Below, piece by piece: positions 16,898-64,000 of a stretch of DNA of 64,000 bases. Source of the stretch: Siderastrea radians (Eukaryota > Cnidaria > Anthozoa > Scleractinia > Rhizangiidae); assembly GCA_964017195.1 (NCBI GenBank), contig OZ024890.1, positions 25,475,701 through 25,539,700 of the forward strand. Direction: 5' to 3'. The notes beneath the pieces are model-generated. The model was not told where the DNA came from, made no database searches, and saw only the letters and a program-made list of their open reading frames with translations. The translations under genes and the position numbers were made by a program. Within the stretch, counting starts at the first letter, position 1; each line of letters opens with the position of its first letter.

Positions 16898-19800
16898 ATG
16901 TTTTGCACTGCAAACCGACGCGTTGTTCTCAATTTTGGGATTCTAGCGCTCATTTCAACATTTAAGGTAAGGCTATTAAGTCCATGCCAGCTTGTTTTCA
17001 GTTTTTGTCTAGCTTGGACGCCTTCACGCTGCTAAAAAATAGATTTACCATTAATTCTAATTCAGCATAGACTAAATCAGATCGGATACGTATCTTATAG
17101 TCAGTGTTATTGGCCAAAAGTAAGGACTATGCTATGTGGTCTTGCTCTTTTGCTAATTCAACGTACGGCAGTTGATGAAACTAAATCCAGAAAAGCGGAA
17201 AACCTCAAATTAGCCTATGACCGTTTTAATTTTCATTTCATGTTTCTCTGTGGCCCGAGGCCAATACCATCAATTCCTTTATGATCTGGTTTCAAGTCTA
17301 TTTCTGGCCGGCTTTTATCTACACATGAATGCCAGTTGCAAAGTTGAGCGAGCACAAAGTTTCGAAAAGTTCAAACTTTAAGGTCCACAAGTCCGCATAT
17401 GTTAAACACGGGCAGAGTTAGAATTGTGCAACTAACAAATAGTGAATTAATAGCCAAAGGGAACTTAGTCTAAATGATACTCAGTAAAAACAAGGGTGAA
17501 TCGTATATTTAAATATAGTGGATCCAGTAAGCAGAAACAAGTAATACAGTATTTTTAGTGAACGGTCTTTACATAACATCGAGCTTCTGATAAGCCTTCT
17601 AGGCTTCTGTGTTTAACAAATTTATTCAACATTCCATGGCAAATGCGTTGTGACTGATAAACGGATAGCGCAGGAGGAAAAGCCAGAAAAACCTGAATAT
17701 AAAAACTGTATTACACAACTAAACTGTATAACACAGGCTAAACAAACGTCATGTATAAGTACAAGATCTTAGAGTTACTTGGCTGCCTTCCTTACTATAG
17801 TCAATCGCAGAAGAGTGGTTTTAAACGAATTTTTTATTCCAAGGCTTTTCCAATATAATCTACTGGTAAGCTAAAGAGACCTTTACGCCTTTTTTGTCAC
17901 GAAAAAGGGAACTCGTAGTAAGTTAGTTTAAGCCTTGGGTATTGGTAGTTTGTCAAGAGTGATCATGTTGGTAACCGGTGTTTGGGCAATCTTAGCGGTA
18001 GTCTTCTTCAGCCAGCTTCAGAGTCGAGTGAAATGTTTAGTAACATAATGGTGATTTAGGAAATTATCGCAATTTCAATGAGATGAGTTGCTGATAAGCA
18101 GATATCCGGCGGTACAGTAATCATTCCTTTGGATAAACATTCATTACTGTGTTTATTTAAAATTATAATATTATTTTGTCAGTGGGAGTCTAAGGCTTGA
18201 CATAAATAACCGGATAAACAAGTAGAACGAGGTAATTAATAATTTGGGCTTGAGGGTGATGTTTTACGTCTTGCGCAACTGCACTTCCATCGAGTCCGTT
18301 TTCCTTTCGATTGCAATGGAGGAGAGCCTGAAGACAGTGCCTCAGTAGGAGCGTGTCATCTAGAGCAATGATTTAACCATGTTTTAAACCAAAATAAACG
18401 CTTTTTAACCGTCCTATCTGAGACTTGAATCCCCCTCCCCCCTCCCCCCCCCCCAAAAAAGGAAGCTGTCTTCTTCGCTTCTCTTTAAAGCATAAGGCAT
18501 GTACAGGGGAATGGAGCTAAAAAGTAGTGACTGTTAGTTGCTTTAATGCGGTGGATATCGTATAGGTGGAATTTGTTAAGCTATGCCGGCATGTTCGTCA
18601 GCGAATAGGCTTTACTGTTTTTATCTATGGTAAGTATTTCCTTAATCATCTGTCTCTAAACATCAAAATAACGAAGATAAGACACCGTAGTACCTCCTTT
18701 GTTTTCATTTTGTTGCTGATTATACTCATCTATTTGATCATTCTGGTGATACTTAGATTACCGGTTATCATCAACATTGCAAACACTGATGTGTATACAA
18801 TATATACCAGTGAATTAAATCAGCAAAAAAATGTGTTCGTTGTGCCCAATGAACTGCTAGTTCGTTCTTAAATTGCTTTTTAAAAAAACCTGTATGGTAA
18901 CGTAGCATTAAAAAAACCAACCTTACTCTGAGAGAAAACAAACAACGACAACAACAACGTAAAAGTGCATGGGCAACTTTTCAGAGTCTGTCACGTCGAA
19001 TTACTCTTTGACTCTTGGGACCATATCCGTACGTGAGTTTATCGGTCTATGTATGGCCGGAATATTTCAGTAGAGGATGGGTACAATTACAACAGAAGTT
19101 AAATAATCATTCGCCCGCGACAGTTTCCCTTTCTCACAGACTCCTCCTTATACTTGTGTTTCTTTAACTCAATAGAAACACGAAAATGTTTTTCTGTTTC
19201 TTGACAAAAAAAAAATTATCAATGCCTCACGTTTCTTGTCCGTTTATACTTTTTTTAGAAAACCTTTGGATCAGGTAAAGTGACTGTTCAACTAGCGGAC
19301 TTCCGCAACAGCCAATCACGGGTATACGACGGGGGTTGCTGTGACAACGTTAACTGGTGCATTAACGAATGTGACAATTACTTCCGGTTGTGTTTCGCGA
19401 AGACCTCCTCCGCCGACAAGTGCTCGCTGTGGAGTGGCTGGACCACAGTGCTTGGCGATGACAGTTTCTCCTTTCCTAAAGCTGGTGGTAGTCTTGGGAA
19501 TGGAATCATGAATCCTTTAACATTCAGCTTTACACGCTGGGAGGTATTTACCCTTTTAAGCACTGACATAAAAATGACATTTCTTATGGAACTAGTGAGG
19601 AGAATTTGTCTAAATATCAAGACATCTTATCCTTCTTGATCACTTTCTTTATCCTCATCACTTGATATTAATGTTTGAACAAGTATTAATAATGTAAAGA
19701 GAAATCTCATTTTCGTCACTGTTAGGGCTCAAAGGGTTAAAAGAAGCACACAGAAACAGGTGAAAAGACTTTGAGTACACTGTATCGCCAAACAAGTATT

Positions 19801-22800
19801 GTCTTTGTTAAAATTTGCTAAAGCACAGGAAACGTTTCCTAGTATCATTATCTAATTGTTATGAACTCTAGAAGCTCTCCAAGAACAAGACTTTAATTGC
19901 ATTCTTGAACAGTTATATAATATACAAAAGTCCTCCGTCACCAGTTTTGAATGACCGTGTCGATCTATGTTACAATTATATCAACATTGTGGAGGAGAAG
20001 GAGACATGTCTGGGCAAATGCGGAAAAGTTTTGCACAATGATTAAAGCTACATTCTCCTGATCCTTTGTTCAGCCTCTTTGACCAGTGTAACGGTTTTAA
20101 AGCCAGCTTTCTGGTGACCTTTTCCCTCTGACAACATAGTTTAGAAGTTCACACGGCAAATTAAATTAGAAACAAAAATACCCTAACGGTTTTCCCTGTT
20201 TTTCACTTTCAGCCAATTCTTTTCAGCGTTGAAGTTTGGGACGAGGATTCCGGATCTGCAAACGATTTAGTGGATCGTTACTCGTTATCCATTCAAACCA
20301 CCCCTTCGCCCACACGTGCTTTAACAGCCGCCCGACGGCATAAAATGTCAGGAAAAGGATACTCATATTTAAACGTCGATGTGAAAGTGTTCTGTGATGC
20401 AAACTACTTCATTCCAGACTGTTCGACTTACTGCGCCCCACGAAATGACGACTCTGGACATTACACTTGTGACTTCACACGAGGTCAGAAGGTGTGTCTG
20501 TCTGGATGGTATGGCAGCAACTGCCTCACTTACTGTATGCCGAGGAATGACTCTTTAGGACATTATGGCTGTGACTCAAATGGACAAATTAAATGTCTGA
20601 ATAACTGGTACGGGAAGGACTGCGTGCTTTATTGTAAGCCTTCAAATGGTCTTTTGGGCCATTACAGTTGTGATGTAAACGGGACAAAAAAGTGTTTGTC
20701 TGGGTGGTACGGTAAGGACTGTCTAACTTACTGTGTGTCCAGAAACGACTCTTTGGGACATTACACTTGCGATGTAAAGGGACGAAGGAAGTGTCTGAAA
20801 TACTGGTATGGTCTACACTGCTTGGTCTATTGTAAGCCCAGAAATGACTCTTTTGGGCATTATACTTGCAACAGCACTGGAAATATCGTTTGCCTGGAGG
20901 GTTGGAGATGGCAAAAATGCACTGAAAGTGAGTTAGCGGGTGGTTCTTCCACTATGACTAGCACTACGGGACTTCAACATGAGATGTCTTTGTCTAGAAT
21001 ATTTTCACAGCCGAGCACATCCAGTCGAGAGATTCCCTCAACCCTCGATAGAGGCACAGGATTTCAAAACCAAACATCTACAAATCACGTTTTTTCTCAA
21101 CCGAGTGCTTCCAGTCTAACGACAATTGCAACTACTTTTATGCCAACGACCTTTGCTACATCCCTTCACGCAAAAGATAAAGAGCCTGCAGTGAAAATAA
21201 CTATGACGACGAGGGTGACGACCTCTTCGACACTTGATAGCACATTAGTACAAGTTACATCACAATCGCAGGCTTTTCGTCCAAAGGCAAGTGGGCAGAC
21301 TCTAGTGCCAACGCCCTCTGTTGGACTTGTTCACACCAAAGATAAAGAGCTTTCAGTAAAACCAACAAAAACGACGAGAGTGACGACCTCTTCAACAATT
21401 AATAGCACATTAGGTCAAGTTCTATCCCAATCACAGGCTTCCGGTCAAAAGACAAACGGACCCACTCTGATGCCAACGCCCTCTGTTGAATCTGCTCACA
21501 CCAAAGACAAAGAGCTCACAACAAAACCAACAATGGTGACGAGAGAGATGACCCCTTCAACACTTGATAGCACTTTAGGTCAAGTTACATTCAAAACGCA
21601 AAATTCTGTTCCAAGTACAAGTGTACCCATTCTAGTGCCAACGCCCCCTACTAAATGCACTTGTTCTAACGATAAAGAGTTAACAGTACAATCAAGTAAA
21701 ATGACGAGAGTGGTGACTCCTTCAACACCTCATAGCGCCATAGGACAATTTCCAAGCCAAACGCGGGCTTCTAGTCCAAAGGCAGGTGAACACACTTTGG
21801 TACCAACGCCCTCTATTAAATCTATTTATTCAAATGATAAAGAATTCGAAGTTACAGTTCAAGTAACTGAGACGACGAGGGCATCGATCCCCTCAACAGT
21901 GATGTTGATGTCAACTCCCTCTGCTATACCCCTTTGTACTCAGGGAGATGACGAGGTGACATCCGATCCAACCTTCAAACCTGAAGAAACATCTGGCATT
22001 CTGGTGATTTCAGTGGAATTCCAGGAAAAGGCAGATAACGAACTGGTAAGTTTTTCTTGATTCTTGACACTCAAAGAAACACAGCAATTTTACTAACAGA
22101 TGTCAATCACAGTAACCCAATGCCTTTCGTTTTAAAAGGCTACTCGCTTGCCCTAATCTCACAAGCAATAAAAAATGAATACCGGTATACTCAACATATA
22201 CGCTACATTCCTTTGTCCATTCTAGATCTTTACTAATCAATGTAGAAAATTGTTCTTGCTTTTTTGCAGGGGATTCCTCGGGTAATACGCACGATCAAGA
22301 CTGTCTTAGCGGAACAACTAAACAAATTGTGCATCCAAGAAATGGAGGCATGTAATGTAACTGAGGAAGACAAGCACAGGTAAATAAGGAACTATTCATT
22401 CAAATATCTCTTTTTCTGTTGCTGGGAGGACAACGAAGGAAATCAAGCACCGCTTAGTGCGAAACCCAATCGTCATGCAATTGCAACTAGCCCGATGGAC
22501 CTCTCTCGTAAACTGATTCTATGATGGTCATGGAAACACCTCGCCAATCGAACGTTCGCTCACATCTACAATACAGCATCAGTGTGAAATAATGAGGGAA
22601 GTAATGATAAGTAATAATAAACTTAAATTAACAAAGAATTCCAACATTTACCTCTAATTACATCGAGGCTGTACTGAAATCTTAACAGTAGCGTTTAATT
22701 CCATATTTACTCTGCATCTATTGCTTTCTACTTTATAGTGTATGGTTTTGTCCTCGGGATGTAAATGTCCAACTTGATGACCTCACGGAAAAAGGCGTGT

Positions 22801-25017
22801 CTCTCAAAACAGCATCCACGCTTCCTTCACCACTGAACGGTAAGATGCCGTGGCGTAACAATACAGTTGCTAATTTCATTTGACTTTAAGGCAAACAAAG
22901 TTGATGATCTAAGAAAACAGCGACAGAAGCGACTGGAAAAGAGCGGGAAACCTTAAAATAGTCTCATACAGGATGCATTTCTAGAATCTCTCAGGGCCTT
23001 TTCTCAAAAATTCCGAAGACGTTTTAAGGCAGAAAAACTATTCAGTTGTGCAGTAGTTCCAGGACCCGAAAGTCTCCTAACAGTTTTGACAAACACACGA
23101 CTGTGCATTACATGCAAGAATCAGAATCGTTCACGTACGTGGCAGCATACAGATATGTATGGCATTAACATTAGTGGACTTGCCGCCATAACATTATTTT
23201 GATTTCAATATGACTTTTAAGTCGTCTCAATCTGGTTTCTGTCGTGTGTAGGAATGGTTTCTCTAGAGTCCTTGATGGAAATAGTGAACAGAAGTAAAGA
23301 ATACCTGGAAAGTGAAACGCAAGCGAATATCACTTGGATGCGAGTTGATGAATTGACGACTCCGCGCACGCTTATTTATGGAAAGCCTGACCAGCTCACG
23401 CGTCTTTCGGTGCGACAGAAACAAAATCCACTGCCCTACATTCTGGGGATCGCAGGCGCTGGACTGATACTAGTTGTAGTGCTTTTTGTTGTGCGGTAAG
23501 AATGTCCTTCATTAAATGTAAAGAAGATCATCGCAGTTATGGACGCAACTGTTGCAGCTGCGAAAAGAAAGCCTGAAAAAGATCAGGCTTGTACGGGATT
23601 CGAACCCCTGACCTCTGTGATACCGGTGCAGCGCTCTTCTTTTTAAAGGGGCTTCCGCTCAGGTTGTTGAAAGACCTTGAAAAGTCGGGCAACGTCCTTT
23701 TTCTGGACGGTACTTACCCGAGCAATCATACTGGGAGATGGGGGTTGGTGTTGGGAAAAGAACATGGGAACTTGGGTGAAATTAAAGGTCTACGGCAGGC
23801 GAAAAAAGAGAGAAAGAGAGAGCGGGCAGTGGGAAAACTAAGAAAAAAAATAAGCAATGTTGCGAATATTTTGCGAAAAAAATCCAGAACCTGTGGACCC
23901 AACCAAAAGGAGGCCAGACTTCAGGTACATGTCATAATACACTGAGTGTGCTGATTAATCGAACATAGTGGAGCCAGTTCCTGGCCAACACATGATATTT
24001 TGAAAATCAATACTAGTCTGGAATTAACCCCTCTCTTTTCTTACAGTTTTTACGCGTTTTTTTTTCTGCTTTTACTGTCTTTAGAGCAAAAGTGGCAAAA
24101 AGGAACATGATCCATCCCTGCACTGATGATGATGATCTGCCGCCCTCCTCTTCTTTAAATTCGCAATATGAAGCAGACACTGTGGTCCTTCTTACCCGAG
24201 CGAAGGAAAAATATGTTTGCAAGGTAATGCAAGATGCCTTTTCTCCAACTTTTTCTTAATTCTTCAAGCATTTTATACCAGCCTGTTTGACACTGTAACG
24301 TCACAAGGTTTGCTCCTACATTTAAAACCACAATTTCAGTCAACCGAAGACAAAGAAGTAATATAGTCGACTGGTTTCAGTCGGTTAATATCACTTCAAG
24401 GATGTCTTAAATGCCTAATAGGCAAAAGTTTTCAGTGACTTCACAAATGCTTATAGCTTAACACAATCTGTGTTATCTGTTATCTCTCTGTTATTTCACT
24501 CTCTAGGTTATACAGACTATGTTTTCCCCACATTTGACTTCAAACTGCAACAGTACTGGTATCCACTTGTCTACTTCATGCCTGATAAATCCGAACCCAG
24601 GGCTTTGGAATCTGGAGTACAGCCCCTAGAATCTAGAATCTAGTAGCTGAATCCAAAATCCAGATTACGGGAATCTCATTAGTCTTAGAAATTGAAATCC
24701 CAAGGTGAAGAAACCTCCATCAAGGGCCATCTCAAATTAAATCCGAAAGCGCAAGGCGACGAACAACCTCGGCCCCAGGGCCCTCCCAATTTTAAAAAAA
24801 ATCCTGCGATCGAAGTCGGACGAAGAATTTAAATACCATTTCACAGTGATCTGGAGTGAACAGTCAGGAATCCAGATTCCAAGACCCTTTGGGTGCATGC
24901 TTGTCTATGTTATGATCACACCTTCCTTTTATTTTCTTACAGGGTAAAGAAAACACAGGCCTCAACATGGACTGGGGCTTTGACGTGCCTGAAGCCATTG
25001 AAGAAATATATTTATGA
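16898..25017 (+). CDS. Notch-ligand-like membrane protein with five tandem DSL units
   Basis: Proposed exons: 16898-16966, 19259-19543, 20213-22045, 22270-22379, 22739-22839, 23252-23495, 24085-24223, 24943-25017. All junctions are GT-AG with consistent phase, giving about 951 residues. Exon 1 encodes a signal peptide (VVLNFGILALIS). Exon 2 is an MNNL-like domain (VQLADFRNSQ, GGCCD, CDNYFRLCF), the N-terminal domain of Delta/Jagged proteins. Exon 3 holds five DSL units, then a Ser/Thr-rich stalk. Exons 4-6 encode a juxtamembrane domain with a few Cys, then a TM segment (YILGIAGAGLILVVVLFVV). The cytoplasmic tail of about 70 residues is acidic and ends EEIYL, which could bind a PDZ domain. EGF repeats of classical Notch ligands are absent. 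By family it should be a cell-surface protein; Notch binding is unproven. Confidence 0.85.
20393..20920 (+). repeat. five tandem DSL units
   Basis: The first unit has the full six-Cys DSL pattern (FCDANYF..DC, TYCAPRND, GHYTCD, CLSGWYGSNC). Four more follow, each with YC, GHYxC, C and a final WYGxxC. The terminal Cys of each unit stands where the second Cys of the next should be. The fifth unit ends WRWQKC and leads straight into the stalk. Unit length is about 33 residues. Three units carry the sequon NDS. Confidence 0.9.
21167..21945 (+). repeat. 165-bp tandem repeats encoding a mucin-like stalk
   Basis: Units begin at 21167, 21332, 21497, 21662 and 21827, exactly 165 bases (55 residues) apart. 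Each starts near a KDKE or NDKE motif and contains TTRVTTSST-like Thr/Ser runs and LVPTPS. The last unit is partial. The composition suggests a heavily O-glycosylated extended stalk. Confidence 0.9.
23520..23650 (-). mobile_element. tRNA-derived SINE
   Basis: The minus strand reads GAGCGCTGCACCGG, then GGGGTTCGAATCCC, a good pol III B box (about 23591-23604 on +). A short hairpin follows (AAGCCTGA..TTTTTCAGGCTT) and a tail. It lies in the intron after the TM exon of the first DSL gene. No tRNA cloverleaf can be formed. Confidence 0.7.
23648..23740 (+). mobile_element. Penelope-tail-like fragment
   Basis: GCTTCCGCTCAGGTTGTTGAAA followed by a stretch ending ACCCGAGCAATCATA lines up with the Penelope 3' tail at 2340-2420. 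The middle part differs (GACCTTGAAAAGTCGGGCAACG). It abuts the SINE head, so the two may form one composite unit on the minus strand. Confidence 0.5.
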
Positions 25018-35456: not shown

Positions 35457-35465
35457 TATACCGGT

Positions 35466-35841: not shown

Positions 35842-35908
35842 TATACCGGTAACAAGTGTCAGTCAACGCCCTTACTAAACGTCTCATGAACAGGAGTGTG
35901 CAGTAGAA

Positions 35909-44140: not shown

Positions 44141-44310
44141 GAGGTGGATCCAGGGGGAGGGTTAAGGGGGTTGCAACCACCCCCCTTTGGGAAGTTTCCG
44201 AACTTGTCTGACTCCTTGTGTCTATTGCTTTTTCATCAACAAAAATAAAAGCTTGTTGTTTTTTACTTGTAACCCCGCCCCCCTTGAAAAAATCCTGGAT
44301 CCACCCCTGA
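44141..44310. mobile_element. MITE with GGTGGATCCAGG ends
   Basis: GAGGTGGATCCAGGGGGAGG at the left is matched by CCTGGATCCACCCCTGA at the right. G-rich then C-rich inner blocks (CAACCACCCCCCTT, AACCCCGCCCCCCTT). About 170 bases, non-coding. Confidence 0.65.
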
Positions 44311-44391
44311 ATACATGCCAATTGGAACTCCTGGGGGCTAAAGGGTTAACGCTATCAGCCATTAATCATAATGTGCTTCTGAGAGGAGTCA

Positions 44392-47300: not shown

Positions 47301-49621
47301 ATCCAAGGCAATTTTAAGACCTGTAAAGATACATGTAAACCAAGGGTTAAGCATAAACAGCTGAACCTGACAAACAAGAAAGGTTCGCCGTCTACACATA
47401 ACAATACACCTGTAGGCATTTTAGAATGCTTTGGATCATTTGGCAGCAACATGTTATATATTCCTTTAAGAGACTTAAACCCTGGTCTAACATTCTTATG
47501 GACATAAATTTTTTCTTGCATCTCAAAATTGTATGTCTGTTCTCTGAAATTCTAGCCATAATGAAGTTGAAATTCTAGCCACGATTTCACATCAGGGTAG
47601 GTACCAAATTCAAGTAAAAATTCACGTGCATAATTTATTCACTTTCATGCACTTCTGTCCAAAACCTTACATGCAAATGATGAATTGAAGGTGTTGATGG
47701 AGCACTGACAGGTAAATTACAGTGAAACCTGTATTAAGCATACCCCATATTAAGCGGACACCCAGTATTGAGCGGACACAAGCGTCAGTAAGTTCCAAAC
47801 GTTTCTTCCCATATTTTCTGTAAAACGAACCTGTATTTAGCTGACACCTCTATTAATTAAGCAGGCACTAGCAATAGTCCCAAGGGTGTCTGCTTAATAC
47901 AGGTTTCACTGTACAAGAAGGCTGAATGGCAGTCTCAATTCCAAGTCTACAGGCTGTCCATCCATCCCCACCCCCCCCCCCCTGGCAATCCTGGACAAAC
48001 CCTGGGCATTACTGCAAGGTTAGCTCTATATAGTGGGGAATTTGACTCAAAAAGAGGCCTGCCTGGTCGGGCATTTGACTATTGTGGGAATGTTGGTCAG
48101 TGGTCACAAGCTATAGGATTTCGAGCTACAGTGTACATAAGCATAAAGTATACACTGTACGTCAGGGTTTTCTTCATTTTGCTGTAGGTCCAAAAAACAT
48201 TTCTGTTTTCGGGGTGGATTTGATGCAATTGATTAACTGTTGTAAGCTAAATAGCTTGTTTATATATTGCATTATTCCCTGTTTTCTTGGAGCATCCGTT
48301 TTCGTCTGCATTTAATGTGAGCATTCCTGCGTTAGTGAACTGAGAAAAAATAATCAAAACCTTCGTCAGAGACGCCAAACTACATATAACAAACAAACAC
48401 AAATAAAAAACAATTACATCAACAAAAAAGTGTGTTACTTGCTGATTAAGAAATTGCATATTTCTGTTTTATTGGATCGCCCTTTTATCTTTAAAATTTC
48501 AGGTGATGCAAATTTTGTATAAGCTGTCCAACTGTTTGAATATTTAATAAATTTTAATTCCATAGGTGGCTATAAAACGTCTGAACTTAGGACAATTTTT
48601 GTTAAATACTAGCCCAAAATAATACTTCCTTATCTAAAGGGAGGGGAATTTGATGCTCTGTGAAGCCCTAACCGATGGGGGATTTGACTGCGCTAAAGGC
48701 CATTAGCGCACCAGGCTAAAGAATTTGACCTTTTTTTTTAAACAGTCAAATGCCCGATGGGGAAGGGGGGTGGCCCGGAGAGGGGGGTACTTCCTTATAT
48801 ACGCTATATAGGTATGTGCCACCCGATAGGGTAGGCTTTTTGAGGTGCTCAGTCCTTAAATAGGGTATCCTTTTTGATGTTTTTTTGATATTGTGATCCT
48901 TAGATGTTCCTTAGATAGGGTCACTAAATTGCAGTATCCACCTCAATGTGCAAAACGAAAAAGATATGGTCCATTAAAACTGTACTACACGTTATAAAGT
49001 TTAACAAAGCGATTTTAAAAGGGCGTTTATAGCTTGTGTTGGCGCTCCTCACCACCTAGTTACAGAATTATGAGTTATCTTGTTTCCCTTAAATAGGGTG
49101 CCATTTCTTGGTTTTGGGCCTTTAAAAGTGTATCAATTCACGATTTTCTACCCTTAAATAGGGTCAGGGTTTGAGAACCTTGGCGGCACACACCTATCCT
49201 AAATTGACGGGAGTACCCCCGGGGGGGGGGGGGGTGGATTTGACTGACATATTAAATTTTCAGCCATTTTAAGGCAAGGCAAGTTACCTAAAGCTGCTGC
49301 TACACCTGATTCAGCGATCAGATTGTGTCCACACGCGTGTCCCACTTCTGGTAAAGCGTCATATTCACAAATCAAACCAACTGTCAGACCTCCATCTTCA
49401 CCAGTTTCAGCACGAAAAGCGGTGTCCAAAGTGAAATGTGGGGTCACATCGAAACCATACGCAGCTAAAAACTCAGTTAGTTGATCGTGGGCATATGACT
49501 CCTGAAAAGCCAGCTCTGGGTTCTCCCATATGCATCGGTTAAGATCATACAACTCAGCAGAATGGATATCAATTGCCTCTTTTGCTTTTTGCTTCAGGAT
49601 CTCTGTCTGACTGTCCGCCAT
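44392..49621 (-). CDS. PM20D2-like M20 family peptidase, copy C (intact)
   Basis: Exons: 49621-49288 (334 nt), 47320-46835 (486 nt), 44768-44392 (377 nt). Lengths and phases equal those of copy B, giving 398 residues. Start MADSQTEILKQKAKEAIDIH; motifs [75 protein letters not shown]. The C-terminus is SHPTNK rather than SHPATH. It is the most diverged of the three copies, so probably the outgroup of a more recent A/B duplication. Introns are packed with mobile elements: MITEs at 47720, 47965 and 48781 in intron 1; a Penelope tail, a palindrome and a SINE piece in intron 2. Confidence 0.9.
44871..44975 (+). mobile_element. solo Penelope-like 3' tail with hammerhead-like core
   Basis: CTGATGATGACTTCCACTCAGGTTGTTGAAA, TCAATGTCATTA and CTACACTCACCTGGACGATCAT correspond to 2330-2420 with scattered differences. 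No RT precedes it, so it is a severely 5'-truncated copy. TAATGAC (44874-44880) and GTCATTA (44924-44930) can pair around the core. Confidence 0.75.
45208..45262. repeat. perfect 55-base palindrome
   Basis: Two 27-base arms beginning CTACTTTACTGCACCTACAC flank a single central T. It lies in intron 2 of copy C. Confidence 0.9.
46228..46384 (+). mobile_element. SINE fragment
   Basis: CTCCACAGGTGTATAAATAGGTACC, GGGGTAACCCTTTGATAGACCAGCATCCC and CACTTCATGCTGTAGAAA match the body of the SINE at 40368. The tRNA head is missing. Confidence 0.6.
47720..47911. mobile_element. mariner-like MITE, TA target duplication
   Basis: CAGTGAAACCTGTATTAAGC at the left and its inverted match GCTTAATACAGGTTTCACTG at the right. 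TA precedes (47718-47719) and follows (47912-47913). AAGCGGACAC is repeated inside. 192 bases. Confidence 0.85.
47965..48780. mobile_element. G-rich MITE related to the one in the CAP exon
   Basis: C-run and CCTGGGCATT motifs on the left, GTCAAATGCCCGATGGGGAA on the right, with GGGGAATTTGA motifs inside, as in 29658-30132. Limits are approximate. Confidence 0.45.
48781..49235. mobile_element. G-rich MITE, relative of 41519-41962
   Basis: Left end GAGGGGGGTACTTCCTTATA followed by CGCTATATAGGTATGTGCC; right end inverted, ending GGGAGTACCCCCGGGGG. CCTTAAATAGGGT recurs inside. Confidence 0.7.
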
Positions 49622-50498
49622 TTTCCGATTGCAGAGAAAAATTGAGTGTTTATTACATGACGCCAACATGTCACGGTATTAGCAGCCCACAAGAGGATAC
49701 AATCGCGGGCGCATCCTCAGAGGAATCTGTCAATTTTTGTGAAGCTGGAGGTGGGTATTAAAAGGGCATATAAAATAGAAATCAAAATCGTCAGTCTGTA
49801 AAGCACTTTTAATTTTTAATGTGGCTGAGGATTTTATTGAAAAAATAATGTAAAGTATTTTGTTGTGGCTCCTCTTAAGCCTCATTCTTTTCATTTGGTC
49901 TAAAAAGTAAATCTATATCATGTATTCAAATGCAAATGGCTGTATGTATGATGGAGAGGGACACACTGAGGATGCAGACTCAGGAGAAACGAAAGTGGGG
50001 AACTCGAGCAGGATGAATAAATTATGTTTGTAAAAGGGAAGCAGTCAGTGTACTAAAGAATAAGGTTTTTTCACAACATTGCATAATATACCTAGTTTTT
50101 AAGTGGCAAAGTGCCAAGAGTCAAGACCCATCAGGGGAGGCACAGGAACCCAGAGTATTTAAGGGATACAAAAAGTGGAAAGTTCAGTCCATTGACTCCC
50201 TTTTGAAGGGAGGGGGGATGGGGGGTCCAAAAACATCAGTCCCACTTCCCATACCATTTACTCTCAGTTCCTCCCCCCCCCCCCCTTCCTTGGTGGCTCT
50301 TACCAAATTGTGCCTTTTTTACGTTGCATAATATTATATAATATAGTGAGATTTTTCTCATCTCTCCCACTTCCTACACCCTCTCAAATGCTATTTTATC
50401 CCTTTTCAGCTGTCCCCTTGATTGTCCTCCTTCATTTAGTCCCTTCTCCCCCCCCTTCGTGCCCCTCTATACACCCTTCAGTCCCTACCACTGTATAA
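49622..50498. other. upstream of copy C, no gene
   Basis: Putative promoter region of copy C near 49622-49750, then AT-rich DNA with G and C runs at 50205-50285. No coding signal. Confidence 0.35.
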
Positions 50499-53114: not shown

Positions 53115-56100
53115 ATGTTTGTCCTCATGAGCAATTTTTGTACCAATATGACTTCTTCGTTGCCCATGTGTGTTTTCTTCTTACTCTTTTTACTGACGGC
53201 CCATACGGTGAGTATTAACGAAAAACTACTTATTATATATTCAGTTAAAAGCTGCGCTGGTGATATCCAGCGCGTACCTCCTGACTAGGCTAGATAGTCC
53301 GGGAACCAACGGGAAGCATCGTCAGTTCCCGAGTCTATACCTGATACTAGCAGAAATTACTGTGGCCCACTGCAAACACGCAAATCTTATTGGCTCAATA
53401 GTCATTGACTATTCTCTCATAGTCAATGTTTGCGCGCCCTGCGTGCTGTGTCCATTAAAATTATGACTTTATGTTGTTTCCCTACTGCAATCATTTTACT
53501 GTCGGGCCTATAATAGACAAGAGGATATACGAAGAGGAAGAAAGGATGGAACGACACATCTTCGTTTATATACGAAAGAAAAATTGAATTAAGTAAGTAC
53601 ATATATCTGGGATTCAACACCAGCGACATTGTAGTTAGGTCTTGAGTAAAAGCTTATGACAACAGGACAAGAACTCACACAGTCTGGATTACTAATTTTG
53701 TGGTTAGGCTGTCAAGCATGTTTTCTCTGTTTTGTACATGTCAAGTGCCAGCAGGTGCCAAATCGTGCGACTGCTATCAGAGTTATGCCGGACCATGGAC
53801 GGAAGCGTTTTTGGTGATTTGACACTCAGTTTGCATGAGATTACTGTGATTTGATTCTTTGTTTTGGAAGAGTTATCAACGTGTTTTGTTTTTGTTTTGT
53901 TTTTTCTATTTCCTTCTCTCTAAATCTTCAGGCTGTCTTAAACCAAAGTGCGTAGTAGACCCTCAGTAATTAATCAAACAGTCATATATTTATTGAGCTG
54001 TTCGTTGTAGCCAACGTTTTCAGTAAACTGAAAGATTTCGGTCGTTTTCTCAGCTCACCCATAAATAAATGTTATTTGTCAAGTGAGTTGAAGACTTTTC
54101 TAAGTTAATCCCGAAAAAAACCATTTATCTGCACAGTCACGCTGTCATATAGGCTCTCCACGGAGAGCTTGTATATACTGCTGTACATACTGGCCGATTC
54201 ATTTATTCATCCCTTCTATTTCCGTACGAACAATCGTTTTAACGATTTTTCCCCTGTATTGGGCTAATTGCTAATGACCTCCTTGCTAGAAAAGTATCAA
54301 GAACTACATCTGTACTACAGTAACTATAAAGGTACGTATCAGTAAAAGTATGCATTACATATGTTTCCTATAACAATTCTGAAATAAGACAATTCTTCAC
54401 CCGAATTGAGGAAGAATAACTGTTTTAGTGAATACCACACAAGTGGGGAGTACGCCCCACGTAGTTGTTTAATTTTCTGTCAAATGCGCCGAAGCATCGC
54501 GCAAGGCGATTTTGTTTTGTTCGGGGTGAATAGCAAAGGATATCAGGAGTTTCAGTAACCAATCAGAGCGCGCGTAAAACACAATTCGCGTGTGAGGTAT
54601 GTGCTATTGCTGAATAATGACAGGGTCTTCTGACAAGTTGTAGCACGTGATAGACAAGATAAAATCATTGACTGCAGCAGTCAAAAGTAGAACGTTACTT
54701 AAAAGAAATGGATGAAAGGAAACGAGTCAGTAATTCAAATCGCGTCTCCAGTACTCAGGCTATTTCTCGATTGCTAGGTCCCAAGACGAGTTTTTATTTA
54801 GTACAACTTCCCTTTTTGTTTTAACACTACTCTTGTTTTAAGCTGCTTAAGTTGTGTTTAGGATTGTGACGCGGGCACAAGGGTTAAGCAAGTTTTAAAG
54901 CGCATTTTACACGCAAACTTAACGGCAAAGGAGAATCACGACAATTACAGCGTTTTCTTCCGGCATCTGCATTAACATCAAGTGCAAAGTGATGTTAGAC
55001 TGGGACGTAAGCCACACTCGGTATATGCATGGTTTCTTCGCCCGATCTTCTAATCTGTGACCGAGAAACGTTTTGAAAGCAAATATCACTAAGCTGTTCT
55101 TGCCTCTCGTTCTGCGCAAGTAGAAAATTTCAGTAGAACTAACAGTATTTGTGTCTAGAATATTAAACACCCTCCCCTGGATTTGGGATTTCTGCTTCTC
55201 GGCTTACCTGGGAGGAAAATTTTTTCAATGCAAATATTAATTAAGGCAAATAAATCTCCGACAGCTAACCACGTGCTTTTTTAGCACCTTACAGACTCAA
55301 ACATAATCCTTACTATCCTCCATTGTCTAAACCTTTTAAAGGCTTTTGACGGTGTTCGTATTGTGGTTTCTTAAGAACGAGGCAACCATATCTCACAGGT
55401 GTTAATCCTGTATTCACAAAAAAATGTTTTCAGTTCAGTCACCAATGGTTTATTTCAACCATTTAGTGCGGGGGCAGTGTCGCGTTTATAAACACATTCG
55501 ACCCAACTGTAATATCGTCGTTTGCTTTGAGGCCAAGGGAACGAAATTCCCTTCGTGAGAATTTCCTGTCAACTTCTAGTTGAGTGGAACTATATTTCCC
55601 GCTTTTTTGGTCGTTTTGGGTGACGCTCTGTAGCTCTGCAGCACCTATGTAACATACATTCGGTTTGTACAGAACCCTTTCATCGCCAACAGTGCTGCAA
55701 TGAATTAAGAAAAAAGTAATCTTTAAGGTGGTTTTGTAAAATACAGAAAAACAAACAGTACTACACATATGTACTGCGCAATAGCTTTCATTTGAATGGA
55801 CACCCCTAAAGATTTCTTGCACACACACCTACACCCTCAATTCCAATTTGTCACTTTCACGGAAGGTCAAAGTTGCTTGTGGCCCCGGCGTTCAAATGTC
55901 TCTCTGTTTTACTCCTTTTCTAAAACCCCAGTAACTGGATGTTGAGCTGTGCCTGTTTTTGCAGTTACCGCTGGAACACATTAAATTCATTCATTCGTTC
56001 GTTCGTTCTTTCATTCATTCATTCATCCATTCATTTTGATATTTATTTATTTGTTTGTTTATTGCTTTATGTACGGCAGGTTAAAGTATCCTGTGGTCCG

Positions 56101-59100
56101 GGCGGTCAGTTATCTTTGCTGTTTCGCTCCTTTTCCAACCCTAGCAGCCAGACGCTGAGCGGTGCCTGCTGTGACCCACTGTGCGAGGCATGTAACTATT
56201 ACTTCGTGTTTTGCATCCGTGTCGATCCAAGATCCAGCAGCTGCTTGGTGTCAGGCAAAACCTCCACCTATCACAACTACAAGCATTTGGTGTTTAAGGA
56301 TGGAGAGTCCCTTGGAAACGGTTGGAAAAATCCATTGTCAGGAAGTTTTGCTTCTTGGAAGGTAAGGTAAATTACTAAAAGATTTCTGTACAGCACCACC
56401 AAATCCAATTTTCCATCAATGTCAACATGTCGACCCAAGCAGACAGCTAACGGGTATAAATTCAGATAACTATTTGATAAAGTCGCGCTCGGGCCGCCAA
56501 TGTCACTTGCATTTGTAGCCGGAATGACGGGCTTCAATTCAGACGTGATGGATGGTCAAACCCATTCCAAGTAGTTGTAAGTTGGACGTAAGTTGCGAAA
56601 AATCCATTTCAACTGAGGTAACCCACACTGTTGGCGCGCGCCACACTATTAAAGAAAGTCGCTGAGACCAACTTGTGGTAGCCAAACAGGTGCGCAAGTA
56701 GACACAAGTGTTTAACTTCTGTTTCTTTGAGACTGTGTTTGGGCAGAGAAGTAGAGGGCCTCAGCACTGTGCTTTATTTACGAAGTATGTCCGATTTTCG
56801 ACAATGCCAAAAAGACCACTAAAGCAGGTTGAATAAACTTTATGGGGTGGCTGTACTAAGTTCAAAAGTGTTGTTGTGGTTTGGGTTGGTGCAAGCTAGT
56901 GTTTCACCGTTTGTCCACCCAACCCAAGTCTACTCTGGTTGGTTCCACTCTCGTTTGGTGTGTGCGCCTCAGCAGGGTTACACTCAAAAGGTGTTTGGGT
57001 GACTTACCTCCGTAACATGCGTAAGCTGTACTTGCAAGCGTAGTTGTCTAGTGTGTTCCATTTAAAGCCCGGCCAAAAAACTTCCCAATAGTGTTAGCTA
57101 CTTGCATTGGCAGTCTTGATGGGTAAAGTTAACCCTGTACATTTGGCTGTTAAAATTAAGTCAGTGACAAAACGATTGATACAAGTTACTCTATATTACA
57201 CGTACAGGGTATGCTAAGCGTTACCATTGACGTCATGGACTATGATTACTTTTCCGAAGCAGAGGTCGTTGATCGTTTCAGCGTTAAGAGAACAAAGGTA
57301 GTACCAACTCCATGGATGGATTCAGACAAATGGAAAACGATTTCCCTCGGAGGAGGTAACCATCCCTCTTCCATGACACTAGACTATAATATACAGTGCA
57401 ATGCCAATTATTACGGAGCCAGCTGTACGAAATATTGCAGGCCACGGGATGACGATATCGCAGGTCACTACACGTGCGATAAAGCTACTGGTCAGTGGGT
57501 TTGTCGAGCTGGGTGGCACGGTGCGAGCTGTAAAGTGTACTGTGTTCCTCATGACGATGATACACAGGGACACTACACATGTGAGTCTGGTACAGGGAGA
57601 AAGGTGTGTCTGCAAGAATGGTATGGGTCCAGTTGTAAAGTACACTGTATGCCTAGGAATGACTCCATGGCGGGGTACATATGCAATTCCCAGGGACAAA
57701 AGATCTGTTTGCAGAACTGGTATGGTAAAAAGCAGTGCAACATTTACTGTAAACAAACAAACGATTCCAACGCAGGTTACAGCTGTGACTCAAATGGAAA
57801 CAAAATTTGTTTCCAAGGTTGGTATGGTCGGTCGTGTGATTGCGCACCGAAGAATGACTCATCCATGGGTTACACGTGCAATACTACTACTGGGAAAAGA
57901 GAGTGCCTGGCGGGATGGTTTGGAGGTAAATGTGATGTTTTCTGTTCACCCAAGAACGATTCTGCCGGACACTATACTTGTCACGATGGCACTGGAGCCA
58001 AACAGTGTCTACCGAACTGGTTTGGCGAAAACTGTACCGTGTACTGCAAGTCAAGGAATGATTCCTTGGGTCAACACGAGTGCACGATAAATGGAAGCCA
58101 ACTTTGCGCCCGTAACTGGTATGGTCCGAGTTGTAGTGTTTACTGTATCTCAAGACAGGACGATGTGGCTCACTTCACCTGCCATCCGAAAACAGGACAG
58201 AAAATCTGCGGAAAAGACTGGTACGGGAAGAACTGTAGCACTTATTGTGCTCCTCAGGACAGTGATTGGTTTGGTCATTACAACTGTAATAAACCCGATG
58301 GTAGCAAACAGTGCCATAGCAACTGGTACGGAAATCTTTGCACTTTCTTCTGCATTCCTCGCAATGACTCCCACGGGCATTACAAGTGCGATGAAACTAA
58401 CGGTAGCAAAGTTTGTCTGGACAACTGGTTTGGAACTGAGTGCAAAACGTACTGTAAGGCAATGAACAACTCTCAAGGACACTACCGTTGTAGCGTCACT
58501 GATGGAACTAAGCTTTGTCACAAAAACTGGTTTAGGCAAAACTGCACAGTGTACTGTGCACCGAGAAATGACTCTTATGGGCATTACCAGTGCGATCAGG
58601 GTGATGGTAGCAAGATCTGTCACCGGAACTTTTACGGCCATGACTGTTCGACACATTGCGTTCCTAAGCGAAGCAGTTTAGATGGCCATTATGACTGCAA
58701 CTTGAAGGATGGTAGTAAGATTTGTCTCCGGAACTGGTATGGACAGAATTGCAGCGTGTATTGTCAAGGGCGAAATGACTCCGAAGGACATTATGAGTGC
58801 AATGCAGTGGACGGAAGTTTCAGTTGTCTTCAGGATTGGTATGGTCCCCAATGCTCCGTATATTGCTTCCCACGGAACAATTCCGAGGGGCATTATACTT
58901 GTGATTATAAGACTGGAAGCAGAATATGTCTTCCAGGTTGGTACGGACTAAATTGCAGCGTGTATTGTCAAGGGCGAAATGACTCCCAGGGGCATTATGA
59001 GTGCAATACAGAGAACGGGAGTTTAATTTGTCTTCAAGATTGGTACGGTACTCGATGCACCGTGTATTGCGTTCCAAGGAGTGACTCCGAGGGACATTAC

Positions 59101-62100
59101 ACCTGCGATATTACGACCGGGAGCAAAATATGCCTTCCGGGTTGGTATGGACCAAACTGTAATGTTTACTGCGTAGGGAGGAATGACTCGCAGGGACATT
59201 ATGAGTGCAACGTTATGAATGGGAGCAAAATTTGCAACGCTAACTGGTACGGAACAAGTTGTAATGTATATTGTATGGGGAGGAATGATTCCCAGGGGCA
59301 TTATAAGTGCAAGGTAGTGGACGGGAGTTTGATGTGTTTCCAAGATTGGTACGGTCCTCGGTGTTCCGTGTATTGCTTGCCAAGGAGCAACTCCGAGGGG
59401 CATTATACTTGTGACTCTACGAGTGGCAGCAGAATTTGTCTTTCAGGATGGAACGGGAAGTATTGTGACCAAGGTGAGTGGCTTTTACAGCTTTAGGTAA
59501 CTTAGATCATTTTTTAAGGTTTTCTGTTTGGAAAGTACAAAGTATTGTGGAAGTGGATTGTTAATTTGGTCGATTTAGTGTGACTTTTCTCCCGATTGCC
59601 TTCAGGAAAGTACTTTGTTTAGGTCTAGAAGGGGAATTAAAGGGAATGATGTTTTGTTACCGATCTGGTGGGCCTTTATGTGTCGGGTGGGTTTATTCGG
59701 TGGGGGTGTCTTATACCCGGAGGTGGGAGGGCGTAGAACCGCGGGATTTTACGGTATTCCAAGTATTCAGAGAAAGGAATACATTGCCAAACTTCTAGTA
59801 AAATTCAGACAACCTGAATAAATGTAATGACGTGTCTCAACGTTTTGAAAGAATGATATGTGGAAGTTTTCAAAGTATTCTTATTTCTCTCAATAAAATG
59901 CATTGATAGGAAAACCTTGTATGGGTGTATCTTCTGAGTATTCAGGAAAACGAATTAAAAGTTACAGTTAAGAGAACTTATGAATCATGGTACGCCCTTT
60001 CTAGAGACACAGCAGCCAGAGACAACAGAAGCCAGCATGATCCCAACATCCGATGCATCCTCGTTGGCTCTTCCAACCTTTCCTCCACAATATAACAATA
60101 ACGAGCAGCTTGTGTTGAATCTTCGACTTGAATGGAGAGGACAAAAGGTGAGTGTGACACAAGTAAGGTTGTTTCCGTTTTCCTCTCCATCCCAGGAAGG
60201 ACATTAGGTGGCTACTGCAGCTAGTGCTCTATGTCTGTTTCTAGCCGTCTTCTTTTCATTGGCCAAGACATGGTGACCTAATGTTGTCGGGTCAAATGCG
60301 AACCTTGTTCCCTGCAGGATTCAGGCAATTTCTCAACTGGAGGCCACTATTTACATTCTATTTCCGGATGGAAGGCATTAAAGCTGCCTGACCATTTTCC
60401 AAAAAACCTTATAGCTCATGTAGAAGTTGGGAACCCGCATTTTCAAATGTCAAATGCAAGGTTTCCAGGAAAGCCTTGACGGCCACGACACCTGAAAACA
60501 GCACCCTGGCTCAATGCACGTAGTAATTAGTATCTCAATGGGGCATTTTCAGATGTATCATTATGCTTACAGTACTGAGAAGAAGACGACGAAGAAAACT
60601 CTTTTGTTTCTCTATGCAGGATTTGAGAAAGGTTCTCAATAATTTAAAATCCCTCTTGGCGAAAAAACTGAGCATCTTTTGTAACGCAAGAAACGTCAAA
60701 TGTGGACTGCCAGAGGACTGGTTGTATCGTAATAGGTTAGTTTGATTTGTTGTCATATCACAATCTTTAAAAAATTTTGAATGTAATGTTTTCTGCATTC
60801 ATCATTGTTGTCACTGGTGAAATATTATCTGAGTATCAACACCTTATTTGGAGCTTACATGCCAGTGTATGTGTGCGATACAAATGTACTGGGCAGGTTG
60901 AACGGGGAACTCTAGTCAGAGGGCTTTTATGTTTTCCCATATCTTTGTGAATCAGCGCCTGTGAAAACTAACCGTAAAGTTAAATTTGTTCAGATAATGA
61001 AGTGGCAAACAAAGAACAGAACTGTATTCCTCGAATTCACGAGCTCTTGTTGCTTTAAATTTTCAAAAATTCATATCTAAATGTTTCTTGTACCCCAAAT
61101 GACATTTGTCTCTCCGTAAACAGAGGAAATTAACTTTCCCATATTAGAAAAGTTCACCTTGACATTTAGCTAAGAAACATGAATAATTCATAAAGAGAAA
61201 ACAAAGGAAAATTACTACCTTGACGGTGGTTTGGATAACTGATTTTAATTAGAATTGAATTTCTCCAAAAACTACTAAGGGTTTGAGAAGCTATATTAAA
61301 TGCGTGAAAGAGTGTTTCATCAGGATATCCAAACACCTCGAAGTCGGTAAAAAAAAACTCGCCTGCGCCTCGTTTTTGCAATCCACTTCTCGGTGTGTGG
61401 ATATCCTGATGAAACACTCTTTCAAGTGTTTGACATGTTACTTTAAATATGGATATATTTTTCCTATAATTTTATTTAGATCAGTCTTTGACTCCGAGAG
61501 TATTTTGGTGGAAGCGGAGCAACTATCAAACCAAAGTCTTGCGGTTAAATTAGCAGTAAAACTTCCCCCAAGCGTGGAAGGTAATGCGCCGTATATCATG
61601 ACATTTATCTGCGACATTTGTTCATGACAATACCTGCTAAGGGATGGGTCATTATTTAGAGGGGGGACGGCTGGTGCAAATGGAGGGAGGCCATGTTCAA
61701 ATTCTCCTCCCTCCCCTTTTTGAAGCAGATTTTTTGCTGACCCTCCCCCCTTAGCCCCTTTGTATAACAAAGCTCCCTAATATGCATGCATAAATTTATG
61801 TGCCCATCCCCCTCCCCCATTTCCCTGCATAAAAATTATTGACCCTCCCCCTACTTGCACCAGCCCTCCCCCACCTAAATAATGACCGGTCAGGGAAAGA
61901 TCAATCCTCAGTTTAATGGTTAGTGGATCGGACTTGAGTTCAAAAGGTCGTAGTTTCGGGTTCTGGCCGTTGTCTCTCTTCACCCAGGATTCAGCGGGTA
62001 CAAACGGATACAAGTGATCCGTTAGGAAGACCTTACATAATCCTGGGGGTAACCTTACAATTGGCCAGCGTCTCATCCAGGAGGAATAAGTAATGCTCCT

Positions 62101-64000
62101 AACAACCTCTTGTCACAGAAACGGGAGATAAGCGCCGTCCGCTGATGAGCCATTTGGTTCATCCAATCAGTCACATTTTATGCAGACAAATATGTGACGT
62201 CATAACATGTCACTAATCACGTGCTACATGCATGTCTATTTCAGGATCGTTTCCAGGCCATACGCTGGAGGAGGTAGTAATGATGAATAAAGACTCTATT
62301 CAAAATGTCACATCGGCTGAGGTGACAGAGGTGTATGTTATCTCTCCAAGCCTTGGACCAGGTATCTCAGAAGGCTCTGCTGTGTCTGAGAAGCCATCAA
62401 CTGGTTTTCCATCTTTATTGATTTACCTCATGATCTCTTCGGGTGTCACAGTTGTTCTTATTCTCCTGGTTATCGCGTTCTGGAAATTCAGGTAACAACT
62501 TAGATTCAACAAGGAGTAAGCAACACGAGGCATAGGGCGTTGTTGACTAACTCTTATACCTCCTTATACTGGCACTGGCACAAGATTCTCACATTTTTCC
62601 TCGATACCGAAATGCAAACAACACAGGAAATGGGTGCAAGTACTTACAGCCGGCTGCCTTTGAAAAAAATAGTTTGATTATCTCTTGATTGACGACATGA
62701 ACAAGTTCCTAGGAAAAGTGCCGCAACTCTTGCTTAAATTAAGAGTTGTTGACTTTTTAACAACAATGCACTGGTCTGAATCTTGAATAATTTATTGCCC
62801 TTGGCTGAAAACGTGCAATACATTAATTTATGTATTCTGATAAGTGTTTTTGTTTGGTGGAAGGTTGGTGGTTCTTTCATGTTCAGATTTCATGTCACCT
62901 TAACTTAGTGCGCTTATATTTTGGAGAAAATACGGTAACTACTTTCAAGAGACGTTTAACAGAATCCCAGTCAGCATTTCCACAACCTTTTTCACCAAGC
63001 GAATGAACTTTATTTTTTCTCTCCAATTCAGGAGAAGAGATTCTCGTGTACGAGTCATCAAGGTAGCCCCTAGCGTTGATAATTGGTTGCCTGGAGACAC
63101 AATCGCTTTTAATTAGTTTCAAGAACCCCTAGTGCTGAAGACAAAGAGGTACGTATCCGCTGTCTAGTGTCCTAGTGTTAGAAGCGTATCACTATAAAAT
63201 AGATATAAATTCAGTTTCTTTGTCTTTGAAGCTGGGTATTATCTTGTTATTCTGATAGATTTTGCCTTCGTTCTTGGTGATTGTTTGCGTACAGTTTACA
63301 TGAAGATTTTCTCAGTATGTTTTGCCCTGAAGCCAAGCATCAGTTCTCGATCTGAAGTAACTGACAAATCGTTAATTCATTGTCAATTCTAAAAATCTGT
63401 ACACTTAAATTCGAGTTTTGAAGCCAGGAAAAACATCTTTTTGATCAAAGATTATGAACACAACAGACAAACTGTAACCCTTACTTGCGACACACGTCTC
63501 ATGAAAGAAAGACAAACATGTTGTCCTGAGCAGGAACCGAACCTGTGTCTCCCCAGATACTAGTCGAGCATGATAACCACTACACCACCGGGTAAACCAC
63601 GCTGGCAACGTGGCTAATTTCCTCGGAACATTTTTCTTTTGAGGCTATCGTGTGTAACCTGACTTCTAAACCGTCATTAGCGGGATTGCTATCTAAACCT
63701 CTTAAATTTGCCTTCATTTAGATCGAAGACTGGAATTGTGCAATGAAACCTGAAACAGTGGTTTGAAGACGTTAGCGAGGTTGATATAAAATCCCAGAGG
63801 TCACTTTTTATGATGGTGCGTTCGGGTGCCGGATACGATGCTATGCTTGTTACTTGTCCACATAACAATATCTTAGCATTCAAGCGAAACAATCAGATGA
63901 TACATCCTTCTTCATTTTTGATCAGTGATTTGTTGTTTTTCTCTTAGGAAATCGTGATTTCCCCGGATAGTTATTCCTCCACTGGACATCCATGCAGCGT
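53115..64000 (+). CDS. Notch-ligand-like membrane protein with 20 tandem DSL units (3' end beyond window)
   Basis: Proposed exons: 53115-53207, 56080-56361, 57208-59473, 60005-60147, 60620-60735, 61480-61580, 62245-62491, 63032-63062, and probably more to the edge. Exon 1 is a signal peptide (MCVFFLLFLLTAHT; in-frame ATGs at 53115, 53127, 53148). Exon 2 is MNNL-like (GQLSLLFRSFSNPSS, GACCD, CNYYFVFCI). Exon 3 starts with the end of that module (MLSVTIDVMDYDYFSE) and holds 20 DSL units. Exon 4 is Thr/Pro-rich. Exons 5-7 give a juxtamembrane domain and a TM segment (LLIYLMISSGVTVVLILLVIAF). A tail such as RRRDSRVRVIK follows. The last frames are uncertain: 63117-63148 and 63948-64000 (EIVISPDSYSSTG) look coding but do not join exon 8 in phase. 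About 1093 residues are covered to 63062. No EGF repeats are seen. Confidence 0.85.
53208..56079. other. intron 1 of the second DSL gene
   Basis: 2.9-kb phase-0 intron. Near 55733-55810 it contains the AGCTTTCATTTGAATGG dispersed motif also present at 15942. No other feature was identified. Confidence 0.55.
57397..59466 (+). repeat. 20 tandem DSL units in one exon
   Basis: Each unit is about 33-35 residues: x2-YC-x-PRNDS-x-GHYxC-x5-GxxxC-x2-WYG-x2-C. The first has an additional leading CNANYYGASC, which makes a full six-Cys DSL domain with RPRDDDIAGHYTC. Later units borrow the preceding WYGxxC as their own start. Units 14, 16 and 19 (RNDSxGHYxC..CxQDWYG) alternate with 15, 17 and 20 (SEGHYTCD..RICLPGWYG), showing a two-unit higher-order repeat. 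Most units carry an NDS or NNS sequon. Unit 11 has WFRQNC instead of WYGxxC, and unit 4-5 lacks one residue between them (CDCAP). Confidence 0.92.
61305..61424. repeat. 120-base hairpin with perfect 27-bp arms
   Basis: Arms at 61305-61331 (TGAAAGAGTGTTTCATCAGG..) and 61398-61424, with partial further pairing (ACACCTCGAAGT / ACTTCTCGGTGT) inside. It lies in the intron before exon 6 of the second DSL gene. Confidence 0.85.
61647..61887. mobile_element. 241-bp MITE with GGTCATTATTTA ends
   Basis: GGTCATTATTTAGAGGGGGG and inverted AAATAATGACC ends; GGCTGGTGCAAATGGAGGG is partly matched by CTTGCACCAGCC near the right end. It lies in an intron of the second DSL gene and directly precedes a SINE. 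Confidence 0.75.
61890..62155 (+). mobile_element. tRNA-derived SINE, diverged
   Basis: Head AGTTTAATGGTTAGTGGATCGG with a degraded B box, then CTCTCTTCACCCAGGATTC, CTGGGGGTAACCTTACAATTGG and CACAGAAACGGGAGATAAGCGC, as in the copy at 40368. Confidence 0.7.
63149..63947. other. intron or 3' region of the second DSL gene
   Basis: No coding signal apart from the SINE head at 63505-63605. The segment ends at a TTAG acceptor-like site (63944-63947). Confidence 0.4.
63505..63605 (-). mobile_element. tRNA-like SINE head or tRNA pseudogene
   Basis: The minus strand shows TGGTGTAGTGGTTATCATG (A-box-like) and CAGGTTCGGTTCCTG, a good T-arm with B box. Acceptor and anticodon stems do not form, so it is not a functional tRNA. 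Confidence 0.6.

Follow-up and report, generated by a model that had tools for sequence, protein, structure and literature searches.

We describe here a gene of the coral Siderastrea radians, termed gene B, which lies on the forward strand of a stretch of 64,000 nucleotides (the window, contig OZ024890.1) and encodes a predicted protein of 1,110 residues with 20 consecutive DSL units; a paralogue, gene A, lies in the same window. On balance, sequence and structure models incline us, if only slightly, to the view that gene B is a genuine gene, encoding a type I membrane protein derived from Notch-ligand (Delta/Jagged) stock, in which a rod of DSL modules has taken the place of the EGF rod. On this view the C2-DSL head was kept, and tandem duplication within a single exon produced the 20 DSL units that took over from the EGF rod. 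Neighbouring units would share a WYG loop, serving as C5-C6 of the first and as C1-C2 of the second, and together they would form a continuous disulphide-laced rod, about 60 nm long on the assumption that a unit is as long as a DSL/EGF module in Jagged1. Such a rod might hold the C2-DSL head at a distance from the membrane, where it could meet other cells, and Notch would be touched through one module at most, as by a weak or cis-acting modulator, or not at all, with another partner being engaged instead. We document the architecture of the predicted protein, the DSL type of its units, the conservation of their order and the loss of the known Notch-contact residues.

The DSL array and its gene model

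The array occupies positions 57397..59466 (+), opening with the first Cys codon of unit 1 and closing with the third base of the final Cys codon of unit 20, and by Cys spacing and fold consists of 20 units of 32-35 residues with four Cys each, repeated with a period of about 34 residues (102 bp). A Pfam search with the exon translation (57208-59472) matched DSL in 20 stretches (E 7.5e-159; 516 bits, cut-off 24.2), 20 stretches at E 3.5e-154 being recorded for gene B as well, and the frame of this exon stays open for 778 codons from stop to stop, so that both the 20 consecutive units and the intron-free array reported by the first-pass annotation were confirmed. Its claim that EGF repeats are absent held as well: Pfam EGF (PF00008) is not listed for gene B, and EGF_TEN (PF25024), which exceeds its cut-off in the same region (103.8 against 65 bits, four stretches), is outscored about fivefold by DSL (501 bits). 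Assignment to an EGF module is further disfavoured by the four Cys per repeat, which are too few for the three disulphides of EGF. A four-unit structure model (predicted local distance difference test score, pLDDT, 93.4) has its best matches in Jagged and Delta, and the modelled DSL rod can be superposed on Jagged's DSL-EGF rod. Cys spacing and published DSL disulphides suggest that adjacent units have a loop in common, the last disulphide loop of one serving also as the first of its successor.

The splice model has eight exons with consistent GT-AG sites (phases 0,0,0,1,0,2,1,2), and the protein reads in order as a signal-like start, a C2/MNNL domain, 20 DSL units, a juxtamembrane domain, a transmembrane helix and a tail of 33 residues. 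Exon 1 (53115..53207, +), which was placed by splice model and matching phase and codes for a hydrophobic signal-like start, is the least certain, being judged by eye and lying 2.9 kb upstream of exon 2; the signal peptide itself is a by-eye call, and the annotated start of the Oculina protein differs. Exon 2 (56080..56361, +) encodes the first part of the C2/MNNL domain, and exon 3 (57208..59473, +; 2,266 bp) the rest of it together with the whole array. They are followed by exon 4 (60005..60147, +), a linker rich in Ser, Thr and Pro with the start of the juxtamembrane domain, taken from the splice model, by exons 5 (60620..60735, +) and 6 (61480..61580, +), both within that domain, by exon 7 (62245..62491, +), with its end and the transmembrane helix, and by exon 8 (63032..63116, +), with the short cytoplasmic tail and the stop codon. 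The helix is clear (about 62418-62474, mean hydropathy 2.72), and the transmembrane segment that had been placed behind the array is thus present, but only about 180 residues beyond the last DSL unit, with an extra domain between. At 63105-63150 the tail of gene B ends where that of Oculina continues, and the bases 3' of the stop resemble, by eye, the Oculina continuation in a different frame.

The C2/MNNL domain in front of the array is supported by its relatives more firmly than by its own score. Exon 2 reaches 19.3 bits against Pfam MNNL, below the cut-off of 22.5, and the domain is listed neither for the whole 1,110-residue protein nor for the homologues P0001-P0007; it exceeds the cut-off in Actinostola P0008 (40.3 bits) and in gene A (56.2 bits). 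The C2 region of Oculina is 75% identical to that of gene B, and the modelled N terminus of this Oculina orthologue has its best matches in C2-DSL structures of Notch ligands (DLL1/Jagged). Together these results uphold the MNNL-like domain proposed in the first-pass annotation. The joining of exon 2 to exon 3, which it had also assumed, is backed by comparative rather than RNA evidence, since Oculina P0001 runs from C2 through 15 DSL units to the juxtamembrane domain and the transmembrane helix, Nematostella P0002 aligns to DLL4 across C2 and DSL (residues 29-250, E 2.3e-13), Actinostola P0008 has MNNL adjoining DSL, and gene A combines MNNL and five DSL units with matching intron phases.

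The juxtamembrane domain, of about 120 residues with two invariant Cys, is found in gene A (about 21990-23400), gene B (about 60088-62350, exons 4-7), Oculina P0001 and the two-DSL protein P0038 of Acropora. It has no Pfam match above threshold (best E 0.015), and none in a profile search of the PDB (best E 0.73); this part of the first structure model has a pLDDT under 50. The order of strands and helices is SEA-like, which is a guess from the sequence.

An assembly artefact or pseudogene, in line with a doubt voiced in 2009 about cnidarian DSL-only genes, would be favoured by the look of the five C-terminal units, which resemble recent copies. The 1,110 codons, however, contain no stop or frameshift, similar architectures occur in proteins of other species, and differences between units are concentrated at third codon positions (mean 0.62, against 0.37 at first and 0.37 at second positions, over 85 equal-length pairs), as is expected of coding sequence. 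We regard such an origin as highly improbable.

Notch-contact residues in gene B and its relatives

In human Jagged1, residues F199, R201, R203 and F207 have been described as the Notch face (PMC3415683), and the substitution F207A alone is reported to lower Jagged1-Notch1 binding to background (PMC3888931). The 20 units of gene B retain an aromatic residue at 199 in 17 cases and R203 in 13, whereas R201 occurs once and an aromatic residue at 207 twice, and no unit combines all four. The single R201 is in unit 1 (57424..57528, +), where Y-R-R is retained and F207 is not; the contact signature is likewise missing from the first unit of both the Oculina and the Nematostella orthologue.

For comparison across proteins, a strict rule (F/Y, R, R, F/Y) was too strict, as only 5 of 12 canonical ligands pass it. 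A relaxed rule (F/Y/L/M, R/K, R, F/Y/L) is passed by all 12 (P0044 read by eye, FKRL), a result that is post hoc for these ligands, the rule having been set after the canonical set was viewed. This set was chosen, canonical meaning one DSL domain plus EGF repeats, with MNNL in 11 of the 12 (none listed for P0024), and it left out P0016, P0021, P0022, P0025, P0035, P0037 and P0039. Among 23 proteins of multi-DSL type, P0036 and P0017 entering with one unit each, 10 of 163 units pass the relaxed rule, never two in one protein. Two-DSL P0038, in which the unit pattern found nothing, and five ctenophore-type proteins, in which it found two units, neither passing, stood outside this set. Unusual spacing escapes the pattern, which recovered 19 of 20 units in gene B (unit 5 was skipped), 14 of 15 in Oculina and none in P0044. 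The one passing unit of gene B is unit 7 (58033..58131, +; YKRL), whose GHY motif is broken, being replaced by GQH. Elsewhere the rule is passed by unit 9 of Nematostella P0002, by the last unit of gene A (YKRF) and by unit 1 of the nine in Nematostella delta-like D (P0031), which is near-canonical (YRRY; CRARDDQYGHYTC).

These counts bear directly on the possibility that gene B encodes a multivalent Notch ligand, or a soluble or cis-acting decoy, in which many DSL units would bind Notch and so raise avidity or soak up receptor. DSL is after all the Notch-binding module, the C2 head is kept, there are 20 copies, and positions 199 and 203 are still largely occupied as in Jagged1. Against this, the near-complete loss of R201 and of the aromatic residue at 207, the latter being the position whose mutation suffices to abolish binding above background in Jagged1 (PMC3888931), and the unit 1 sequences of the orthologues suggest that 20-fold Notch binding is not likely. 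The multivalent binding implied by the first-pass annotation is therefore not borne out, and we consider the multivalent ligand and the decoy, taken jointly, unlikely.

Several observations nonetheless weigh against our preferred explanation of gene B as a DSL rod with at most one Notch-binding module. The 10 signature units exceed the 2.3 of 163 expected from independent columns, and some may be under selection, a comparison that is not a test because orthologous units account for several of the 10. Six further proteins with DSL and EGF fail the relaxed rule (P0021, P0022, P0025, P0035, P0039 and P0037, the last with MNNL, two DSL domains and EGF), so that EGF-free proteins are not alone in lacking the signature and the rule marks core Delta/Jagged ligands rather than every protein with DSL and EGF. 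The contact residues are those of human Jagged1, and no known cnidarian ligand is included in the canonical set. Finally, judging by unit 1 of P0031, Notch binding may occur in one relative or more. We regard it as possible that each protein has a single live module.

Relatives, unit order and alternative functions

Other cnidarian multi-DSL proteins, a search for which the first-pass annotation had proposed, were found. Gene B has its best homologue in another coral, Oculina patagonica (15 DSL units, 74% identity), and its relatives include proteins of Nematostella, Actinostola and octocorals and, distantly, of ctenophores. By Pfam, DSL was counted 15 times in Oculina P0001, 11 in Nematostella P0002, 11 in P0003, 10 in P0004, 6 in Exaiptasia, 5 in P0006, 9 in Dendronephthya P0007, 6 in Actinostola P0008 (whose sequence ends inside the array, before any transmembrane helix), 8 in Desmophyllum, 6 in P0010, 7 in P0011, 6 in P0012, 10 in P0013, 9 in Bolinopsis P0014, 5 in P0015, once in Dendronephthya P0017, 4 times in P0018, 5 in P0019, 5 in P0028, 6 in P0029, 14 in P0030, 9 in Nematostella P0031, 10 in P0032, 5 in P0033, 9 in Xenia, 2 in P0036, 2 in P0037 (with EGF) and 2 in Acropora P0038. 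The 20 units of gene B are the highest count among these relatives. Gene B has the features of an EGF-free cnidarian class, namely C2/MNNL, two or more DSL units, no EGF and a transmembrane helix. In the annelid Owenia fusiformis, P0016 (1542 residues) has 10 DSL matches alongside EGF, which is another DSL multiplication.

Unit order is conserved. Each of units 1-15 of gene B best matches the Oculina unit of the same number (62-83% identity), and the best Oculina matches of units 16-20 (58954..59463, +), which have no same-numbered partner there and are closest to units 14/15 of the gene B array itself, are units 14, 6, 14, 14 and 15. Five units were thus gained in the window lineage or lost in that of Oculina. 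Recent unit copying is consistent with the tandem repeats seen within 58735-59327, whose periods are 102 and 204 bp (204 bp at 58735-59210). Against Nematostella P0002 the same-numbered unit is the best match for 6 of 20 units (1, 2, 3, 5, 6 and 9), and the odd CDC spacing of unit 5 is common to gene B, Oculina, Nematostella P0002 and Actinostola. These four form a clade with support 97/96, in a tree that was sampled without a known cnidarian canonical ligand, carries a long-branch warning and leaves 11 of 27 inner branches unsettled and does not settle the relations of gene A, P0004/P0006, the octocorals and the ctenophores.

The conserved order is also relevant to a purely structural role, in which the rod would be a glycosylated spacer or glycocalyx element with no specific partner. 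Such a role would agree with the 23 N-glycosylation sequons of the array, which include one at position 204 in each of 13 of the 20 units. Unit order and identity have, however, been held against Oculina beyond the needs of a spacer, and the 204 sequon also occurs in 5 of 12 canonical ligands (P0041, P0043, P0045, P0046 and P0047) and hence is no sign of masking; we find this role distinctly improbable. Glycan masking, by which the 204 sequon would block Notch binding, was dropped as a candidate for the same reason.

A Draper/MEGF10/SCARF-like engulfment or scavenger receptor was suggested by database names, the Nematostella orthologue being labelled 'draper', by a SCARF1 fragment among the Foldseek matches, and by NPxY/F motifs, which of 19 proteins scanned are present in the tails of four (P0002, P0005, P0006 and P0007). 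Draper, MEGF10 and CED-1 are defined by an EMI domain, atypical EGF repeats, and NPxY and YxxL in the tail. Gene B differs from them in having DSL units, no EMI domain in its Pfam list and neither NPxY nor YxxPhi in its tail. We think it unlikely that gene B encodes such a receptor. NPxY/F is likewise missing from the tail of Oculina and from the modelled part of gene A. Among the ctenophore-type proteins P0013-P0015, P0018 and P0019, with 4-10 DSL matches and an N terminus that is C2-like by eye, Bolinopsis P0014 and P0015 bear the database names MEGF10 and CED-1-like.

More tentatively, the multi-DSL proteins may be an EGF-free class of their own among the surface proteins of the Notch pathway, each with a mostly disabled DSL rod and one live module, whose reach and presentation would be tuned by repeat number. 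As parts of this same tentative proposal, the class would date back to the origin of Cnidaria or earlier and might extend to ctenophores, and the live unit would be the first in delta-like D, the ninth in P0002, the last in gene A, and the seventh, if any, in gene B.

The paralogue, gene A (17965-24223, +), lies about 29 kb upstream and encodes MNNL, five DSL units, Ser/Thr-rich repeats, the juxtamembrane domain and a transmembrane helix. Its exon 1 (17965..18027, +) is signal-like by eye; exon 2 (19259..19543, +) encodes MNNL/C2, the Pfam match covering 19259-19636; exon 3 (20213..22045, +) contains the rest of C2, the five DSL units (Pfam DSL E 4.3e-55; own profile E 5.5e-71 on frame 20165-22057) and the Ser/Thr-rich repeats, with a 165-bp period at 21206-21646; and exons 4-7 (22270..24223, +) encode the juxtamembrane domain, the transmembrane helix and part of the tail, the model stopping short of the 3' end. 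Intron phases are those of gene B, but exons 3 and 4 of gene B are one exon in gene A. The two genes align with a score of 173 in C2 (maximum 37 in 300 shuffles) and of 92 from the juxtamembrane domain to the tail (maximum 36 in 300 shuffles). P0028, in a public contig, is a piece 94% identical to gene A. Paired multi-DSL genes may be usual, as judged from the 16,139,615-base contig listed for both Nematostella P0002 and P0031 and from the consecutive ids of P0004 and P0006 (Seg918.3 and.4).

Between genes A and B, several copies of an M20-type peptidase/amidohydrolase gene were observed (31337-49678, -), with M20_dimer matches at 40921-41466 and 46797-47420; the frames 33470-33934, 42239-42628 and 49202-49678 are alike by eye, the first and last having no Pfam match. 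Fragments of a reverse transcriptase and a hAT transposase lie at 612-1439 and 2340-3404 (+).

Comparison with known systems

Gene B indicates that DSL, usually the single-copy business end of Notch ligands, can also be the repeating element from which a rod is built, a form kept in this coral, in Oculina and in two sea anemones, and it points to a way for DSL units to have disulphide loops in common. The about 160 natural DSL variants assembled here could be a resource for asking which residues Notch binding needs, and counts of 'Notch ligands' in cnidarians and ctenophores may mix two kinds of protein. For ctenophores, a review describes diagnostic Delta domains as lacking in Mnemiopsis (PMC4810162), and a 2014 paper speaks of Delta-like proteins and no definitive Delta (PMC4335385). 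In Nematostella, NvashA expression serves as a readout of Notch (PMC4335385).

Among known proteins, Delta and Jagged/Serrate resemble gene B in the C2/MNNL head followed by DSL, in type I topology and as its best structural matches, whereas gene B has 20 DSL units where they have one, lacks EGF repeats, has lost most of the contacts and carries an extra juxtamembrane domain. Bolinopsis P0014 (nine DSL) and P0015 (five), found with the cnidarian profile, share with gene B the repeated DSL and, by eye, a C2-like N terminus, but differ in having no Pfam MNNL match, shorter loops and long branches, and P0014 also in its laminin-EGF matches; any architectural kinship is tentative. A 332-residue protein of Hydra gland cells is described as a further cnidarian DSL protein outside the canonical ligands (PMC3180645), and in Capsaspora, a filasterean and so outside the animals, a 'Delta-like' receptor tyrosine kinase is reported with two DSL domains, but with EGF repeats and a kinase domain (PMC4810162). 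The closest precedent is the survey of Gazave et al. (2009; PMC2770060), which reported DSL-only genes with 1-11 repeats and one gene with MNLL and three DSL in cnidarian genomes and asked whether these were true genes or misassemblies; the literature searched, with subscription journals mostly outside it, yielded no later study of the EGF-free repeated-DSL architecture. The distinct architecture proposed in the first-pass annotation therefore stands as a DSL rod in place of an EGF rod but is not wholly new, as repeated DSL without EGF was already on record in 2009, perhaps in the same family as Nematostella P0002 and P0031. Beyond the genes of that survey, as they are described there, gene B offers a complete gene model with 20 units, together with orthologues and a paralogue, and it speaks for real genes where the survey had left the choice between gene and misassembly (PMC2770060).

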